The position numbers and the translations under genes are program-made. From Acidobacteriota bacterium (GTDB taxonomy: Bacteria; Acidobacteriota; Terriglobia; Acidiferrales; UBA7541), in the NCBI GenBank assembly GCA_003225295.1, contig QHYZ01000047.1:62001-126000 (forward strand): 64,000 nt of DNA. The letters run 5' to 3'. The notes below the pieces were generated by a model. The model made no database searches. It was given only the letters and a program-made list of their open reading frames with translations, and had not been told where the DNA came from. This document shows, one piece after another, positions 54,196 to 63,987 of the stretch (positions within the stretch are counted from its first letter, which is position 1; each line of letters starts with the position of its first letter).

Positions 54196-54232
54196 TGGTG
54201 AACCGAGGAGGACGCGAACCTCCAACCCGCTG
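54196..54232 (-). repeat. Copy of the tRNA-Lys 3' end (att-like), middle
   Basis: 37 nt matching the tRNA-Lys 3' end with two mismatches, same orientation as the intact gene 0.5 kb away. It marks the right end of the decayed hydrolase cargo. Confidence 0.85.
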
Positions 54233-54699: not shown

Positions 54700-54774
<75 letters not shown>

Positions 54775-56990: not shown

Positions 56991-57839
56991 TCAGACGCCG
57001 ATGGCGACCCGCGCGTTCATCCGTCGTGTGTCTCCGGCACGTAACGTAAATCTCTGCCCGAAATAGGGAGCCTGCGCCAGAACTTTCTGAAGGTCAAGAT
57101 CATCCGCATAGCGCCGCTTGGGAATTCGCCGCGCCAGAATGCTGATCTCCAACGGGTCGCGACGAAAGGGATAGGGCTCCAGCCTCGCACCGTTGTTCCC
57201 TTCGGGTTGCAGATCCCAATCCACTTCGGTGCCCTGGTAGTCGGCCGGTACCGCATCGATCGTGGCGCCTTCCAAGGGCCCGAGGCAAAAATAAAGGGAG
57301 AGGCGGTCTAACGCCTCGAGACGCTGCGCGTTGGCCTGCAACCATTTCTCGTCGACAAAACTTACCTTCGTGGGATCCGCGCGAAGGTCCACTTTCAGCC
57401 GCAATTGCTGCAAACGCAGTGTTTGCAAGAAATTACCGACGACAGGAGCCTCGTGAGCCTTCACGGACTTGGCGGAGAATCCCGGCATCGTGGCGCGTGT
57501 TCGATCATACAGGCCCGCGCAGTGCAAGCTGACAAGCAGACCGGCGTAGCGGTCCACTTTTACAATGCGTTCGATTCCCCGGTGGTAGAGATCAATGTGC
57601 TCCTGCGTGGGCAGGGACATGAAGCTGTAGGGCAAAAAGCTGACGGGGTCGATGCGCGGCTGGAGCTCCCACTCGTTCCAGCCATTGTCGTGCTCCGTGG
57701 CAGCGAGTTGGAACGATTCCAAAGGCTCGGGCCTCGCGAAACCTTCATTGCCCAATTCGCGCGCAAAATACCCAGACAGAACCGCGTGGTCCGTCTGGCG
57801 AATCAAGATCAGATGATCACCGTGCTCTTGAATGATCAT
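56991..57839 (-). CDS. DUF3891 protein
   Basis: A 282-residue soluble protein starting MIIQEHGDHLILIRQTDHAVLSG, as DUF3891 members do, followed by AATEHDNGWNEWE with the conserved HD pair, and LHCAGLYDR. The family has an HD-domain-like helical fold that may bind metal; no function is established. The ATG at 57839 has GAGGG 7 nt upstream; two ATGs further upstream are possible but have none. Convergent with the DUF4282 gene. Confidence 0.85.
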   Translation of the reverse strand: MIIQEHGDHLILIRQTDHAVLSGYFARELGNEGFARPEPLESFQLAATEHDNGWNEWELQPRIDPVSFLPYSFMSLPTQEHIDLYHRGIERIVKVDRYAGLLVSLHCAGLYDRTRATMPGFSAKSVKAHEAPVVGNFLQTLRLQQLRLKVDLRADPTKVSFVDEKWLQANAQRLEALDRLSLYFCLGPLEGATIDAVPADYQGTEVDWDLQPEGNNGARLEPYPFRRDPLEISILARRIPKRRYADDLDLQKVLAQAPYFGQRFTLRAGDTRRMNARVAIGV

Positions 57840-58064
57840 GGCGCTGCCCTCGTTAGCAGCGACGCTTGAAACATACGCCTTCAGAGTTAAACGCATTGGC
57901 CCGGCGGGTAGACTGGCCAAGTAATTCTCTTATCGACGATGGTATTATGCCTTCACCTATGCCTCGAATCCAGCACGTTCGCGCGGCTGGCAATTCCTTT
58001 CAAAATACCTCCCAAAATCCCAGTGGAGGGGCACTTCGCATGCTTGTAGAATAGAGCCAACACT

Positions 58065-58103
58065 ACGGGAGTGGCGGAACTGGCAGACGCGCAAGACTTA
58101 GGA
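58065..58103 (+). repeat. 5'-half copy of tRNA-Leu (TAG)
   Basis: The bases from 58066 to 58103 are identical to the first part of the intact tRNA-Leu (63902-63939): acceptor 5' strand, D arm and anticodon stem through the loop CTTAGGA. Homology ends there; base 58065 is A in place of G. The D arm and anticodon loop are present but the variable, T and 3' acceptor parts are absent, so it is not functional. Confidence 0.85.
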
Positions 58104-58339
58104 ACAAATCCTCGCGTATTGTAAACAAACGACTTGCAGGAAAACAAAGCCAGTTGACTCACCGGACTTCACCGGGCCTTTAGAGACCCTTCTCTCATAG
58201 TTAATACATAGACTAAGCGGTTGCCATTGCTTCATTCTTGAGGCGGCTTGCGAGGGCTGTTTGCGCCGGGCGTGGAACTTGCGCTGCGGCGGTTGGTTGC
58301 GAACCAGTCACATCTGAAAGGTTCTGGAGGCCACCTACT

Positions 58340-58510
58340 CATTTCGGTGGTCCCCGGCTGACGCCGATGCGCCGTTGGACCTCTCGCAAGAGGGCTTCGT
58401 TTCGAAACTCGCCGAGCATACGAAGGATCTGGATATCGGCCTTGTGGTCTCGAATGCTGGCACGCCAAGCCCGGGCGAGTTCCTGAAGCTCGATCGACGG
58501 CTACGAAACA
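58340..58510 (+). pseudogene. Short-chain dehydrogenase fragment
   Basis: A frame containing ADADAPLDLSQEGFVSKL, then DLDIGLVVSNAGTPSPGEFLKLDRR: the NNAG-like motif (SNAG) and preceding strand of an SDR enzyme. There is no Rossmann GxxxGxG part before it and no YxxxK after it. It is a fragment of an SDR gene, next to the broken tRNA-Leu copy. The surrounding gap (57840-58707) has no other gene. Confidence 0.5.
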
Positions 58511-58707
58511 TCGAGCTGACGCCGTTTCGCGCTCAAGAAAATCCAGTACCCGCTTACGAGACAACTCTGACGTAACAAGATTAGGTAAGGGTTGACGATT
58601 ATTACACGCCCAGAGACTCGTATTTTGTTTCCCGCAACAATGTTTCCGGCCAGCGAGGGCACACTTCGCGAATTGAGCTCGGCATATCGGATAAGAGCAG
58701 TGTTCCA

Positions 58708-60162
58708 CTATTTTTGTTCGAGTTGTTTCAGTTTGTCCGCTGCATTCTGATTTTTGGGATCGAGCTCGAGGGATTTGCGGTAGTTGGTGATGGCCTGTTG
58801 TTTTTGGCCGTCCTTGGCGTATGCTTCGGCCAAACTGTGATAGACGTTGCCTGACTTGGGATATTCCTCGACATTGAGTCTGAAGATGGCGATGGCGTCG
58901 GCATTCCGGCCCTTTTCCAGGAGCATGTAGCCGAGCTGATTGAGGGCATGTTCGTCGAAATTATAACCATGGGGATTGGTGCGCTTGAGTTCGCGGTATT
59001 GAGCAACGGCAGCATCGACGCCACGATTCACCAAAGTCTCACCGAGATCAGGGACCAGCGGGCGTTTCGGCGCGGCCGGCTCCTTCTCATACAGAATCGC
59101 GCGAATTCCTTTCGCCATTTCGCCCAAGTTCGCCCCCGGCGTGTTATTGAAAATCACGATCAGGTCGTGATCGCCCACCAGCCGCTGTTCCAGCGTATTG
59201 AACCCGTTGATTCCCCCGCCATGCGAAATCACCGTCTGCCCCGCGCCAGGCTCATCCGTCGGAATTGTCCGAATATCCCAACCATATCCATAGTGCTCCA
59301 GGTTCGGCGTAAATAGCCTTTGCTTCAGCTCGTTCGGAACGAGTTTATGCGTGTAAAGCGCCTGGTCCCACTTGTAGAGATCCTCCACGGTCGAATAAAG
59401 CGAACCCGCCGCATACGGCAACGACATATCCAGATACGGCGCGTTCTCCACTCCGCCCAACTCCTGCTGATACCCCGTGGCACGATTCGCCAAAATGTCG
59501 GCATGGTGGTCGTAGCCGGAATCCTTCATTCCCAGCGGCACGAAAATGCTCTCCTTCAGCAGCGTCTCGTACGTTTTCCCCGTCACGCGCTCGAGTATTG
59601 CCCCCAGCAGGAAATATCCGGAGTTGTCGTAGTGAAACTTCGTCCCTGGCTCGAACTGCAAATCGCCGCTGCAGAATTTCTTCGCGAACTCCTCGACCCC
59701 ATAAGGGTTTCGCGAAACGTCGGCGAAGAAATTCGGTGCGTCTGTATAACTGGGAATCCCGGACGTATGGCTCAGCAGCTGGCTGATGGTGACTTTCGAA
59801 CCGGTGTCCTGGCGGTAGTAGGGGAGATAGTCGGAGAGGTGGCCGTCGAGCTCAATAGTGCCCTTGGCCACTTGCTGCATGATCAGCATAGAAGTGAATT
59901 GTTTGGTGATGGAGCCGAGGCGAAACTTCACCTCCGGCGTGTTCGGGATGTTCCACTCGCGATTAGCCAGGCCATAACCTTTTTTGAAAATGACCTTGTC
60001 GTGGTCCGAGACCAGCACCGTGCCGGTGAATGAACAGCAGTCTGCATACTGGGACATGAGCTTATCGATTTTTGCGGCGTTGTCGGGGGTGTCTGCGGCG
60101 GAGGCGGACGAAATTTGCCAGAGGAGAGTTAAAAGAAGAACGCGCAGGATGAATTTCTTCAT
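58708..60162 (-). CDS. Serine hydrolase (beta-lactamase/PBP family) with C-terminal TPRs
   Basis: A 484-residue secreted enzyme with signal peptide MKKFILRVLLLTLLWQISSASA; the ATG at 60162 has GAGGG 6 nt upstream, better than the GTG at 60174. Active-site motifs are SITK (S84, K87), YDN in KFHYDNSGYF and HGGGINGF. After about residue 390 two to three TPR units occur (NQLGYMLLEKGRNADAIAIFRLN, YHSLAEAYAKDGQKQQAI). It is probably an esterase or peptidase acting outside the cytoplasm. Similar to the enzyme at 44.8 kb, which has no TPR. Confidence 0.9.
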   Translation of the reverse strand: MKKFILRVLLLTLLWQISSASAADTPDNAAKIDKLMSQYADCCSFTGTVLVSDHDKVIFKKGYGLANREWNIPNTPEVKFRLGSITKQFTSMLIMQQVAKGTIELDGHLSDYLPYYRQDTGSKVTISQLLSHTSGIPSYTDAPNFFADVSRNPYGVEEFAKKFCSGDLQFEPGTKFHYDNSGYFLLGAILERVTGKTYETLLKESIFVPLGMKDSGYDHHADILANRATGYQQELGGVENAPYLDMSLPYAAGSLYSTVEDLYKWDQALYTHKLVPNELKQRLFTPNLEHYGYGWDIRTIPTDEPGAGQTVISHGGGINGFNTLEQRLVGDHDLIVIFNNTPGANLGEMAKGIRAILYEKEPAAPKRPLVPDLGETLVNRGVDAAVAQYRELKRTNPHGYNFDEHALNQLGYMLLEKGRNADAIAIFRLNVEEYPKSGNVYHSLAEAYAKDGQKQQAITNYRKSLELDPKNQNAADKLKQLEQK

Positions 60163-60517
60163 CGTGGCCCTCACATTTAGAGATGGCCTAGCCTGTCAAG
60201 TCAGGAGGGATTATATATTCAAGACTGCGACAGTACATCGAGCAATCGCTCAAGGGAACTCGAGCCCCTGGCTGCGAACTCGATGGCCATTGTCAGAAGA
60301 GTCCCTACTCGCTCCTGATTTGGGGGCAGAATGGACGATTCACCACGTCCAGAACCTCATCTTTCGATTCCCACACCACCTTTGTGGACTCCGAACAACG
60401 CAAGCTCCTTAATTACCATTGCTTTGGCGAATCGCTATTATGCTCAACTTCGCAGCCCAGTAAATTTTTTTGGAACTTTTTGGATATTCAGACGTCTATG
60501 TATTACGAGGACTGAGT
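60163..60517. other. 355-bp divergent region before padR
   Basis: Divergent promoters of the serine hydrolase and padR should lie here. I see no repeat or palindrome clear enough to call. Confidence 0.4.
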
Positions 60518-60847
60518 ATGCCAAAATCTGACTCACTCCAGGGTTCACTCGATTTGCTGGTGCTAAAGATTCTCTCGCGCCGGGCGCGGCTGCATGGCTA
60601 CGCCATCATGTCGGCAATTCAGAACATGTCCGGCGAAGTGCTGCGCGTGGAGGAAGGTTCGCTGTACCCGGCGCTTCACCGCATGGAGGAAGCAGGCTGG
60701 ATTCGCGCGGAATGGATCACCAAAGACTCCGGGAAGCGGGCGCGCATGTATGAATTGACTGCGGCGGGCAGGAAGCAGCTTGGCACCGAAGAGTCGCGCT
60801 GGCAAGCGGTGACTTCCGCAATCAATCGCGTTCTACGGGAGGCCTGA
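60518..60847 (+). CDS. PadR-family transcriptional regulator
   Basis: A 109-residue PadR repressor: SLDLLVLKILSRRARLHGYAIMSAIQ, VLRVEEGSLYPALHRMEEAGWIRAEW and the final ELTAAGRKQL are the winged-helix signature. The ATG at 60518 has GAGG 7 nt upstream; 16 codons of open frame before it are not used. One base separates its stop from the start of the ADOP permease gene, the standard PadR-ADOP arrangement in Acidobacteriota, and it should control that gene. Confidence 0.92.
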   Translation: MPKSDSLQGSLDLLVLKILSRRARLHGYAIMSAIQNMSGEVLRVEEGSLYPALHRMEEAGWIRAEWITKDSGKRARMYELTAAGRKQLGTEESRWQAVTSAINRVLREA

Positions 60848-60848
60848 T

Positions 60849-63521
60849 ATGCCGCTGTGGTCACGGTTAGCCAATTTTCTTCGCGGCGATCGTTTGAATC
60901 GTGAAATCGACGAAGAATTTCAGTCGCACATTGAAGAAGCGATCGAGCACGGCCGCGACCCCGCTGAAGCCCGAAAAGCGTTCGGCTCCGCGCTGCGGCA
61001 CCGCGAGGAGAGCCGCGATATCCGGCTAGTGGCGTGGCTTGAATCGTTGCGCGCGGACGCGGTGTTCGGCTGGCGGCAGCTTAATAAGACCAGGGTCACG
61101 TCTCTCGCGGCAATCTTGTCCCTGGCACTGGCAATCGGTGCATGTACATCTGCATTCCGGTTGATCGACGCCCTGCTACTGCGTCCCTTGCCCGTGGCGA
61201 ACGCTGAGCGTCTGTACGATTTGTCACGGCAAGGGATAGGTCCCGATAACAAGCCGCAGACGTTCGATGGCTGGGCTTATCCGGACTTCCAATTGATGCG
61301 GGCTGCGGTTGCAAATCAGGCCGAGTTGATCGCCGTCTCGTATGCCGAGCCGATCGATCTGACTTACAAGTCAGACGAGGAGACGGAAAGCGCGTACCTG
61401 CAATGTGTTTCCGGTTGGATGTTCCCCACGCTGGGTATTCGGCCTGCCTTAGGGAGAGTTTTTACAGAAAACGACGATCTCATGCCTGGCGGGCATCCTT
61501 ATGCCGTGCTGTCGCACGATTACTGGACGCACCGCTTTGGCCAGGATCCTGGCGTGATAGGCCGTACCTTCCGACTGGGCAACACAATTTACGAGATCAC
61601 CGGCGTCGCGGAGGCACCCTTTACCGGCACCGAGCCCGGCACGATAGTCGATATTTTCGTGCCCATCATGATGCATCCCGGCGTGACGCGCAAAGACTGG
61701 ACCTGGCACAGAACGTTGTTCATGCCAAAACCGGGGGCGCTGGAAAATGACAGAGCAGCCCTCGAATCGATCCGGCAAAAACTGCAGGCAACTTCTCGCG
61801 CATTCGAGGAAGAGCGAGCCAAAGGTTTTCTGGGGATGCGCAAAGAAGACATCGATCATTTTTTGAACCAGACGCTTTTGCTCTTGCCGGCAGCGACCGG
61901 AGTTTCGTCGCTGCAGTCCGAGACACGCCGGCCGCTTGAGATTCTCGGAGTGCTGGTAGCTTTGGTGTTGCTCATCGCTTGTGCCAACGTCGCGAATCTG
62001 ATGACGGCGCAGGCCTCGGCACGGGCGCGGGAGATGGCCGTGCGCGTGTCCATCGGCGGCGGACGATGGCGCCTTGTTCAGTTGGTCCTTCTGCAAAGTG
62101 CCTGGCTCGCCTTACTTGCGGCTGTGCTCGGCGGGTTGTTTGCCTGGTGGTCCGGACCGTTTGTCGTCAGCATGATCAATCCTCCCGACAATCCGGCGCG
62201 CTTGCTCCTTCCTGCAGACTGGCGAGTGCTCAGTTTTGGATTGGCGCTGGCCCTTGGCGTGACGCTGCTTTTTGGCCTGGCTCCTGCCTTACGCGCATCT
62301 TCCGTGAATCCAGTTAGCGGGCTTAAAGGAGGAGAGGACCCACACTCCAGGAGGCGATTGATGCATGCGCTGATCGCCGTGCAAGTGGCGTTTTGTTTCC
62401 TTGTGCTTTTCGTCGCAGGGCTTTTCGTCACCACGTTTAAGCGCTTGTCCAATCAGCCGACCGGCTTTTCCGCGGACCGGTTACTGGTTCTCGATACCGT
62501 GGCAAAGCAGCCTCAATCGCTGGAGTTCTGGGAGCAAGTGGCCGAGCGGCTGCAAAGCGTGCAGGGAGTCGAAAAGGTCGCGCTGGCGGATGAGCCGCTG
62601 CTCGGTGGCGGCAGTTGGAACAATTTCATTTCGGTCAACGGAGCGCCACCCAACGGGATTCTGTCTTACATGCGGGCCGTTTCTCCCGGCTGGCTGGAAA
62701 CGATGAAGGTTCCCCTGATTGATGGCCGGGACTTCCTTCCGAGCGATGCACATCCGGGGGCAGCGCTGGTTAACGAAACTTTCGCGAAGGTCTACTTTGA
62801 CGGTCTGGATCCGGTGGGCAAGACGTTCGACCTCAGTTTTGACGAGGGCGTGCGCCTCCGATATCAGATCGTGGGACTTGTGGGGGATGTTCGTTATAAG
62901 AGTCTGCGCGAGCCGATCTTGCCCCAGCTATATGTTCCTTTTCACTCCGTTGACGCCACGGGGGCAACCGTCAAGAAAACCAACGGAACACTGCTTGTGC
63001 GCACATCGCTTTCCAGCCCGCTTGTGCTGGCGTCAACCTTGCGTCAAGAGGTATCGCAAGCCCGGTCCGAGTTCCGCGTCAGCCGCATCCGCAGGCAACT
63101 GGAAATCAACGAGTCGCACACGGTGCGCGAGCGTTTGCTGGCAACATTGGCGCTTTTCTTCGCCATTGTCGCGCTATTGATCGCCGGCGTCGGACTTTAT
63201 GGCGTGCTGCACTATTCCGTTCTGCAACGGCGGCGCGAAATCGGCATCCGCATCGCGGTAGGCGCACAGGCAGGAGGCATCGCGCGGCTGGTCACCATGG
63301 ATGTCTTTTCCATGGTGCTATTCGGTGCGGCCGCGGGCGTTGGCCTGGGGATGGTTTCCATTCGATTCATCGAGTCACTGTTCTACCAGGTGAAGGCCAC
63401 TGACCTCCAAATGCTCGCACTTCCGGCGCTGACCATCCTCGGGGGAGCGTTACTGGCTGCGCTGCCTGCCGTGATCCGCGCAGTGCGGATCGATCCAGTC
63501 ACGATGCTGCGCGCCGAATAA
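60849..63521 (+). CDS. ADOP-family ABC permease (MacB/FtsX-like)
   Basis: An 890-residue membrane protein. The N-terminal ~75 residues (RLANFLRGDRLNREIDEEFQSHIEEAIEHG) are the ADOP-specific helical domain. A MacB periplasmic core lies between TM1 (about 87-108) and a second helix group; FtsX-type helices occur at about 360-470 and in the last 150 residues (FFAIVALLIAGVGLYGVLHYSVLQRRREIGIRIAVGA). The two FtsX repeats are the duplicated halves that give the family its name. There is no ATPase gene beside it, as expected for an orphan. Probable role: mechanotransmission or export in the envelope. Confidence 0.92.
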   Translation: MPLWSRLANFLRGDRLNREIDEEFQSHIEEAIEHGRDPAEARKAFGSALRHREESRDIRLVAWLESLRADAVFGWRQLNKTRVTSLAAILSLALAIGACTSAFRLIDALLLRPLPVANAERLYDLSRQGIGPDNKPQTFDGWAYPDFQLMRAAVANQAELIAVSYAEPIDLTYKSDEETESAYLQCVSGWMFPTLGIRPALGRVFTENDDLMPGGHPYAVLSHDYWTHRFGQDPGVIGRTFRLGNTIYEITGVAEAPFTGTEPGTIVDIFVPIMMHPGVTRKDWTWHRTLFMPKPGALENDRAALESIRQKLQATSRAFEEERAKGFLGMRKEDIDHFLNQTLLLLPAATGVSSLQSETRRPLEILGVLVALVLLIACANVANLMTAQASARAREMAVRVSIGGGRWRLVQLVLLQSAWLALLAAVLGGLFAWWSGPFVVSMINPPDNPARLLLPADWRVLSFGLALALGVTLLFGLAPALRASSVNPVSGLKGGEDPHSRRRLMHALIAVQVAFCFLVLFVAGLFVTTFKRLSNQPTGFSADRLLVLDTVAKQPQSLEFWEQVAERLQSVQGVEKVALADEPLLGGGSWNNFISVNGAPPNGILSYMRAVSPGWLETMKVPLIDGRDFLPSDAHPGAALVNETFAKVYFDGLDPVGKTFDLSFDEGVRLRYQIVGLVGDVRYKSLREPILPQLYVPFHSVDATGATVKKTNGTLLVRTSLSSPLVLASTLRQEVSQARSEFRVSRIRRQLEINESHTVRERLLATLALFFAIVALLIAGVGLYGVLHYSVLQRRREIGIRIAVGAQAGGIARLVTMDVFSMVLFGAAAGVGLGMVSIRFIESLFYQVKATDLQMLALPALTILGGALLAALPAVIRAVRIDPVTMLRAE

Positions 63522-63900
63522 GCGTACCAACCTGCGAATCCCACTCTTGCACGTGGGCCAGAAGCTCAGTTCTGGAGGGCCGTGATCGGTTACGTTACGA
63601 TCGGCCCCCGATTGATCCGGGGTGACAATCTGGGAGTGATCGTCTTGTGGGTGAAATCGAAATCCTGGCTGCGGCCCCTTCCACGGACGATCCGTAATTA
63701 GGCGAGTAAGGTGAGAATGGCTCTAAACGTCCCGTAAGCAACGCCAGACAAGTCAACGGGTTGGCGCGGTGAGAGCAAGACAAAAAGCCACGCGCGCCGA
63801 CTGCGAACCTGAACGCTTCATAGATAACTCATAGTTGAGGCAGAAACGCCCGTCGAAACCCGAAAGGAAAATGCCCAGAAGCCTGTATAATGAGTGAGTT
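63522..63900. other. 379-bp region before tRNA-Leu
   Basis: No gene. TATAAT at 63886-63891 is a likely -10 box for the tRNA (start near 63898), but no good -35 lies 16-18 nt upstream. Confidence 0.4.
63886..63891 (+). promoter_or_regulatory. Candidate -10 box of tRNA-Leu
   Basis: Consensus TATAAT 9 nt before the first base of the tRNA. The 5'-half copy at 58 kb has TAGAAT at about the same distance, so part of the promoter was probably copied with it. Confidence 0.45.
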
Positions 63901-63987
63901 GCGGGAGTGGCGGAACTGGCAGACGCGCAAGACTTAGGATCTTGTGGCCGAAAGGCCGTGGGGGTTCAAATCCCTCCTTCCGCACCA
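63901..63987 (+). tRNA. tRNA-Leu (TAG)
   Basis: An 87-nt class II tRNA with encoded CCA. The acceptor GCGGGAG pairs with CTTCCGC (one G-U), the anticodon stem CAAGA/TCTTG holds CTTAGGA (anticodon TAG at 63935-63937), a long variable arm TGGCCGAAAGGCCG follows, and the T arm is GGGGGTTCAAATCCC. It reads CUA/CUN leucine codons. Confidence 0.95.

Follow-up and report, generated by a model that had tools for sequence, protein, structure and literature searches.

Within a window of 64,000 nucleotides from an Acidobacteriota bacterium (positions 62001-126000 of contig C224, GenBank QHYZ01000047.1, in a genome of 8.1 Mb), the gene for tRNA-Leu(TAG) is accompanied by a displaced copy of its 5′ half. 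ARAGORN finds a single intact tRNA-Leu(TAG) in the window, at 63901-63987 on the forward strand, and no second intact one was found in a search of the window's own genome. The half copy lies 5.8 kb away on the same strand, at 58066-58103, where BLAST aligns 38/38 bases with the start of the intact gene, in agreement with a preliminary description made from the letters alone, which had reported 38 identical bases from acceptor to anticodon loop at 58.07 kb and at the intact gene. A 37-base query with up to three mismatches matches the window only twice, at 58067-58103 and at 63903-63939, and has zero matches in 100 shuffles of it, which excludes a chance origin of the half. The first base is A in the displaced copy and G in the intact gene. 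The two copies cease to agree at the 3′ edge of the anticodon loop (CAAGA-CTTAGGA), one copy continuing with ACAAA and the other with TCTTG. The promoter-like TAGAAT that had been remarked on before the displaced half is a -10-like box at 58047-58052 on the forward strand, 12 nt upstream of it, and a TATAAT box (63886-63891, forward strand) sits 9 nt upstream of the intact gene.

Comparison with congeners, which are Acidobacteriota metagenome-assembled genomes (MAGs), gives the native order of this region in the genus: tRNA-Lys, a gene that we take to belong with the DHH label although Pfam gave no match, a DUF4282 gene, DUF3891, tRNA-Leu(TAG), Rieske dioxygenase, trigger factor (Tig), ClpP, ClpX and Lon, the last four named by sequence recognition. 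In the window the native 5′ neighbor, the DUF3891 gene (56991-57920, reverse strand; Pfam PF13030), stands beside the half copy, and the Rieske, Tig, ClpP, ClpX and Lon genes follow the intact tRNA. We compared gene order at 33 tRNA-Leu(TAG) loci. DUF3891 adjoins the intact gene in 13 genus genomes and the half copy in five (the window's own, G000, and G017, G018, G021 and G032); the rest are without DUF3891 or lie outside the genus. Three genomes (G001, G009 and G033) carry DUF3891, the intact gene and Rieske or Tig on one contig, with neighbors no more than about 0.9 kb apart. Set against nine genomes whose gene is uninterrupted, the half side of the window agrees as far as the anticodon loop and the intact side through the tRNA, and neither inner flank of the window has a match in any of the nine. 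The stretch 58042-58103 shares 89-97% identity with eight relatives in which the gene is uninterrupted; on the other side, the 3′ half of the intact gene (63940-63987, forward strand) and the DNA after it are 87% identical over 134 columns to G029, reaching about 45 bp past the tRNA. Since the outer sides match the empty sites and the inner sides do not, the 5.8 kb was inserted, and the copy left behind with its native box is the host's own 5′ half. The comparison with strains lacking the interval that had been suggested at the outset has thus revealed empty sites, in gene order as well as in the flanks.

An alternative that needs no element is that the half at 58 kb is what a deletion of the 3′ part left of a formerly full duplicate of tRNA-Leu. 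Duplication of tRNA genes is frequent, and the displaced copy keeps a promoter-like box. However, the flanks are split between the two copies as insertion predicts, a relic of an integrase gene precedes the intact gene, and the break at the anticodon loop edge recurs in half copies of tRNA-Asp, Gln, Thr, Ser, Leu(CAG) and Met. The preliminary description had named an old full duplicate in relatives as the sign of such a history, and none of the 33 loci examined has two full native genes; in G032 a half is accompanied by a divergent full gene. We therefore regard deletion of a duplicate as very unlikely. The divergent gene of G032 stands about 144 bp beyond the 5′ half that adjoins DUF3891 (L047:8914-9181), is identical to tRNA-Leu(TAG) at 70/87 positions and was perhaps carried by an element. 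Two of the 13 genomes in which DUF3891 adjoins the intact gene, G023 (L041) and G022 (L042), have tRNA-Leu(TAG) and its upstream box turned round relative to DUF3891. A 32-nt 5′ part of tRNA-Leu also occurs off the native site on contig C6 of G022 (L055:8770-8801), where the native site is intact; it is possibly a secondary-site integration or a displaced phage-type attachment site (attP).

Both ends of the inserted DNA have counterparts in G017. Immediately before the intact tRNA, 63817-63900 (84 bp, forward strand) is the integrase relic, a remnant of the gene's 3′ end that contains in-frame stops. It aligns with the 3′ end of the G017 integrase at 72% over 88 columns (E 9e-7), and its score of 41 bits compares with a maximum of 22 in 200 shuffles. 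In G017 itself a PF00589 integrase is followed by an intact tRNA-Leu(TAG) from the 8th base past the stop codon, and the tRNA-Leu(TAG) 5′ half adjoins DUF3891 on another contig. The G017 integrase frame reads TACAAT where the window relic reads TATAAT, a change that also creates a stop codon. At the far end, 58104-58211 (forward strand), the candidate right arm of attP beyond the crossover, aligns over 117 columns, at 83% identity (E 1e-32), with the sequence that follows the G017 half copy, and in the nine genomes with an uninterrupted gene nothing within 1.5 kb of the tRNA matches it. With the relic and the right arm both matching G017, both element ends are accounted for. The search for integrases proposed in the preliminary description is answered by the relic in the window and the full gene in G017; beyond the last ~84 bp, no further integrase part was found in the interval.

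The integrases of relatives carry the marks of tyrosine recombinases. PF00589 matches the G024 integrase, encoded at L056:1501-2685, with E 1e-20 and that of G017 with E 7e-8, and across 10 aligned rows H306, R309, H332 and Y341 are invariant and R219 and K246 nearly so. We take these to be the catalytic R, K, HxxR, H and Y positions. Some copies in the genus are interrupted by stops.

The same preliminary description had also raised segmental duplication, and had proposed divergence of the flanks as a test. Copying of the 5′ part by segmental duplication or homologous recombination would suit an interval of ordinary chromosomal-type genes without an integrase gene. Only 38 bp are common to the copies, however, the sequences before them being unrelated, and this together with the unmatched inner flanks leaves a segmental duplication unsupported; both element ends, moreover, match a congener with an integrase. 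We hold such copying to be extremely improbable.

In our judgment the interval is very probably what remains of a tyrosine-integrase element, now decayed, whose crossover with tRNA-Leu(TAG) took place in the anticodon loop and gave the gene a new 5′ half. The attP of the element would have lain directly past the integrase stop codon and held the 5′ half of the same tRNA. Strand exchange by the element's integrase in the anticodon loop would have joined the element-derived 5′ half (63901-63939, forward strand) to the host 3′ half, rebuilding an intact gene at 63.9 kb, and the far end, at 58.07 kb, would have retained the 5′ half and promoter that were originally the host's. The integrase would later have been lost except for its last ~84 bp, with the cargo kept. 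We infer the activity of the integrase, the exact cleavage positions and the transcription of the tRNA from the sequences. Anticodon-loop integration with an incoming 5′ half was the first proposal of the preliminary description, and it has gained support from the empty sites, the relic, the element ends found again in G017, the recurrence of the layout at other tRNAs and a phage attP.

One could also suppose that a normal 3′-type element lies here and that the apparent 5′ half is a by-product, given that 3′-type footprints exist in the same genome, among them a tRNA-Lys 3′ fragment nearby. Against this, the native 3′ side follows the intact gene and the locus scan found no second tRNA-Leu(TAG) 3′ half, and the supposition has in our view scarcely any likelihood.

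The layout expected of an integrase-mediated 5′-type insertion recurs at other tRNAs in the genus. With the G024 integrase as query, relatives were detected in 23/36 genus genomes, and 30 of these loci were fetched with ~1-39 kb of upstream sequence, as contigs allowed. At 22/30 loci an intact same-direction tRNA begins between -13 and 68 bases past the integrase frame end; ten isoacceptors are represented, namely Leu(TAG, CAA, CAG), Asp(GTC), Thr(CGT), Gln(CTG), Ser(GCT, TGA) and Glu(CTC, TTC). The integrase frame ends before the tRNA at 21 of the 22 and overlaps it by ~13 bp at one. Among the other eight loci, three face an opposite-strand tRNA, four are without a nearby tRNA and one gave no match. 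A displaced 5′ half is found upstream on the same contig at six of the 22 loci: Asp in G031, Gln in G033, Thr in G027 (one base missing), Ser-TGA in G019, and Leu(CAG) in G024 and G017. Three Leu(TAG) cases (G017, G021 and G024) have the 5′ half on another contig, and the two parts would belong together. The examined displaced halves end at most 2 nt from the 3′ edge of the anticodon loop. In G018 another 5′ half with the same break precedes tRNA-Met, and in G011 two do so in series. On contig C33 of G024 an integrase relic stands in front of the Leu half, as would be the case if one element had rebuilt the gene and another had then inserted into it. PF00589 matches exist in all 36 genus genomes, with 45 in the window's own; the 30 loci taken from that search were the strongest matches, and since they look XerC/D-like by size and score, no fraction is drawn from them.

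The window's own genome also holds several 3′-half copies of tRNA-Asp(GTC), on contigs C343, C139, C81 and C159 (L316, L317, L319 and L320) and others, together with places that match the integrase end plus a 5′ half. tRNA-Asp(GTC) is a heavily used integration hot spot in this genome, perhaps for elements of both polarities.

A phage attachment site of the corresponding form exists in viral sequences. We scanned 80 IMG/VR contigs with related integrases from 120 bp before to 300 bp after the integrase stop, and 44 have a tRNA-like stretch there. Four contigs hold a same-strand 5′ half and no 3′ half: L244 (39/39), L278 (92% over 38), L273 (93% over 30) and L299 (97% over 38, but 205 bp away). 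In L244 the integrase stop is followed by 7 bp and then a 39-nt tRNA-Leu(TAG) 5′ half identical to that of an Acidobacteriaceae MAG (L127), with the tRNA 3′ half absent within 300 bp past the stop. The L244 record encodes RecT-like, RecE-like, tail sheath, tape measure and baseplate proteins, and its attP is of the form predicted for a 5′-type element. Eighteen contigs have the opposite-strand 3′ part alone, the classic form, several of these being short matches and one lying at a contig end. Relatives of the integrase in named phage records are below 32% identity among the matches listed.

The rebuilt gene is the only intact tRNA-Leu(TAG) found in its genome and must therefore be transcribed from element-derived DNA. 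It is probably transcribed from the TATAAT within the integrase relic, a promoter function suggested by the sequence of the box; where elements keep a live integrase, the rebuilt tRNA is perhaps expressed by read-through. A general -10 box behind the integrases was rejected as not significant. Capture of the host tRNA promoter as upstream DNA of the element was likewise rejected, the similarity over 11 pairs being no better than chance (429/2000 permutations as high) and convincing for Ser in G019 alone. An inverted motif, approximately CGTAAGTYRTTGA, occurs on both sides of the half: on 12/36 integrase sides (mean 3.4, maximum 8, in 300 shuffles) and on 9/15 half sides (3.1, maximum 7, in shuffles). 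It is only a lead, as it was drawn from the same sequences on which it was scored.

Several observations weigh against a decayed 5′-type element. TATAAT-like boxes are not significantly enriched before the rebuilt tRNAs taken as a set, 7/36 having at least five of six positions against a shuffle mean of 4.6, a count reached in 32/200 shuffles. Thirteen of the 22 same-direction loci have no 5′ half in the ~1-39 kb upstream, 11 of these 13 stretches reaching a contig end, and five Glu loci among the 13 have an inverted tRNA-Glu 3′ half instead, ~0.5-0.65 kb upstream of the integrase match (L097, L098, L100, L104 and L105), perhaps a different or invertible arrangement. Most compared genomes are draft assemblies. 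Six of the nine genomes with an uninterrupted gene hardly match the window past the tRNA 3′ end: the match extends ~25-45 bp in G029, G008 and G013 and ~10 bp in G023 and G014, and in the remaining four it does not go beyond the tRNA. With 3′-flank matches this short, the native 3′ side is assigned mainly from gene order; three of the nine support it by a clear match past the tRNA, and the other six rely on gene order or appear to give no support. The interval, finally, is without an integrase gene and its named cargo without a phage gene, so the element type is deduced from G017 and others; the element was probably a prophage or phage-derived island.

That cargo agrees with the preliminary description, which had listed a serine hydrolase, PadR and ADOP. 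Pfam identifies a serine hydrolase of the beta-lactamase family with a TPR tail (58708-60174, reverse strand; PF00144), a PadR regulator (60470-60847, forward strand; PF03551) and a MacB/FtsX permease (60849-63521, forward strand; PF12704 and PF02687), the last presumably of the type called ADOP. No integrase gene is left in the 58.1-63.9 kb interval beside the 3′-end relic. GC content is 0.53-0.60 within the interval and 0.51-0.59 upstream of it, and this comparison gives no signature of foreign composition. Upstream of DUF3891, a 37-nt copy of the tRNA-Lys 3′ half (94.6%; 54196-54232, reverse strand) accompanies tRNA-Lys itself (54700-54774, reverse strand), a classic 3′-type footprint ~3.8 kb from the 5′-type tRNA-Leu half. 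G027 has the same kind of tRNA-Lys fragment, 5.3 kb from its tRNA-Lys.

Use of the tRNA 5′ half has precedents, and a review of archaeal recombinases cites Williams (2002) for its rarity in bacteria (PMC8371274). The preliminary description had observed that typical elements duplicate the 3′ part, and the available passages on the Islander database bear this out, with 159 of 3,919 islands having a 5′ tDNA fragment and 3,760 a 3′ fragment (PMC4383910). It had also called the integration unusual, which holds in the sense of rare across prokaryotes but not of unprecedented, given Islander and the pTN3-like systems as described in the parts of the papers available (PMC4383910; PMC8371274). Like the window, the 5′-fragment islands of Islander, as those passages present them, have a tRNA target with the intact gene on one side and the displaced 5′ fragment on the other (PMC4383910). 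The window has an intact tRNA, an upstream same-strand 5′ fragment, foreign DNA between them and, as the end of identity at the anticodon loop edge suggests, a crossover within the tRNA. Of the integrase gene inside the island only the ~84-bp relic persists, hence the term decayed island; a filter that demands an integrase would miss this copy. The integrase-bearing form is seen in G024, G017 and others. The Islander passages name no integrase group for the 159, whereas here the layout is common to related integrase groups at many tRNAs (PMC4383910).

In archaea, the accessible text of the review describes the pTN3-like integrases as unique in using the tRNA 5′ half, with the rebuilt tRNA expressed from the integrase promoter, and states that 5′-half use is seldom met in bacteria (PMC8371274). 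As here, they use the 5′ half of tRNA-Leu and the rebuilt tRNA is separated from its original promoter, according to the sections available of both sources (Cossu et al. 2017, PMC5495485; PMC8371274). Those systems are archaeal, however, and the elements described here bacterial. By the same partial account, pTN3 integration disrupts its integrase gene, whereas here the integrase stays whole and ends just before the tRNA (PMC5495485); such disruption was not seen at the genus loci. Classic 3′-type tRNA islands and prophages share with our elements a tyrosine integrase, an attP beside the integrase gene and a crossover within the tRNA, but in the passages at hand it is the 3′ half that comes with the element, and the tRNA with few exceptions retains its original promoter, the opposite of what is found here (PMC8371274). 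The displaced part in the window is the 5′ half, and it keeps its native 5′ flank. No description of such an integrase group in Acidobacteria appears in the titles and abstract openings of the literature searched, which mostly left out subscription papers, and the portion available of the Solibacter genome paper mentions integrases and islands near tRNA genes, not the 5′-type layout. The locus belongs, in decayed form, to a class that is known but rare, and the wider pattern is of more interest.

That pattern concerns the polarity of the tRNA relative to the integrase. In a set of named genomes, 62 loci outside the Acidobacteriota have the tRNA on the opposite strand facing the integrase 3′ end in 50 cases, in the same direction in 3 and none in range in 9; the 18 Acidobacteriota loci are same-direction in 12 cases, opposite in 2 and without one in 4. 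The corresponding counts for 29 class-wide loci are 13, 9 and 7, and as 8 of those 13 come from the window's genus, opposite polarity prevails outside it by 9 to 5 within this sample. Polarity mostly predicts the displaced fragment, a check limited to loci whose short flanks reach one: L205 (same-direction) has a 5′ half, and L165 and L191 (opposite) have 3′ halves. Three Glu loci with an inverted 3′ fragment and L220 with a 14-nt 5′ match go against the rule.

The full tree comprises 86 integrases, 56 opposite and 30 same-direction, with 27 of the latter from Acidobacteriota. Polarity needs 7 changes on it against a shuffled mean of 25, and on a pruned quick tree of 77 it needs 4 against 22; in neither case were as few found in 500 shuffles. 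The tree set was chosen by similarity to 5′-type integrases. Set aside beforehand were 29 newer loci (20 lacking a labelled tRNA and 9 that could not be read as an open frame), 11 rows already recognized as duplicates, any that were identical and, from 25 tRNA-labelled genus loci, L056 (present as L126) and L061, L071, L077 and L078 (broken or short). The kept row L164 is probably misread (branch length 10); the tree of 77 omits it and eight other long or doubtful rows, with the clustering unchanged. Polarity is thus strongly clustered on the integrase tree and changed more than once. The clustering of the 5′-type polarity, with 27/30 cases in Acidobacteriota, is new, and the phylum also has the usual kind.

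We suggest, with confidence evenly divided, that tRNA-capture polarity is inherited within integrase lineages and was reversed a few times. Groups that are nearly all Acidobacteriota would carry the 5′ half and new upstream DNA right behind the integrase stop, while most relatives in deltaproteobacterial lineages and Nitrospirota, and other Acidobacteriota groups, would use the same kinds of tRNA, often Leu, turned round with the 3′ end facing the integrase. As the anticodon arm is nearly symmetrical, one and the same enzyme fold would be able to use the turned core, and hosts of 5′-type elements would depend on element DNA to transcribe tRNAs like the single tRNA-Leu(TAG) of the window. If true, this dependence would select against clean loss of the integrase end.

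Islands of the 5′ type, treated as rare exceptions, are a regular form for integrase groups in an abundant soil phylum, and empty sites, occupied sites, serial and dead copies and phage attP sites are all seen. For finding relics, 5′ halves should be sought upstream, besides 3′ halves downstream. It can now be tested how an integrase lineage switches from one tRNA half to the other, and how a single-copy tRNA that the host needs is expressed after mobile DNA replaces its promoter.

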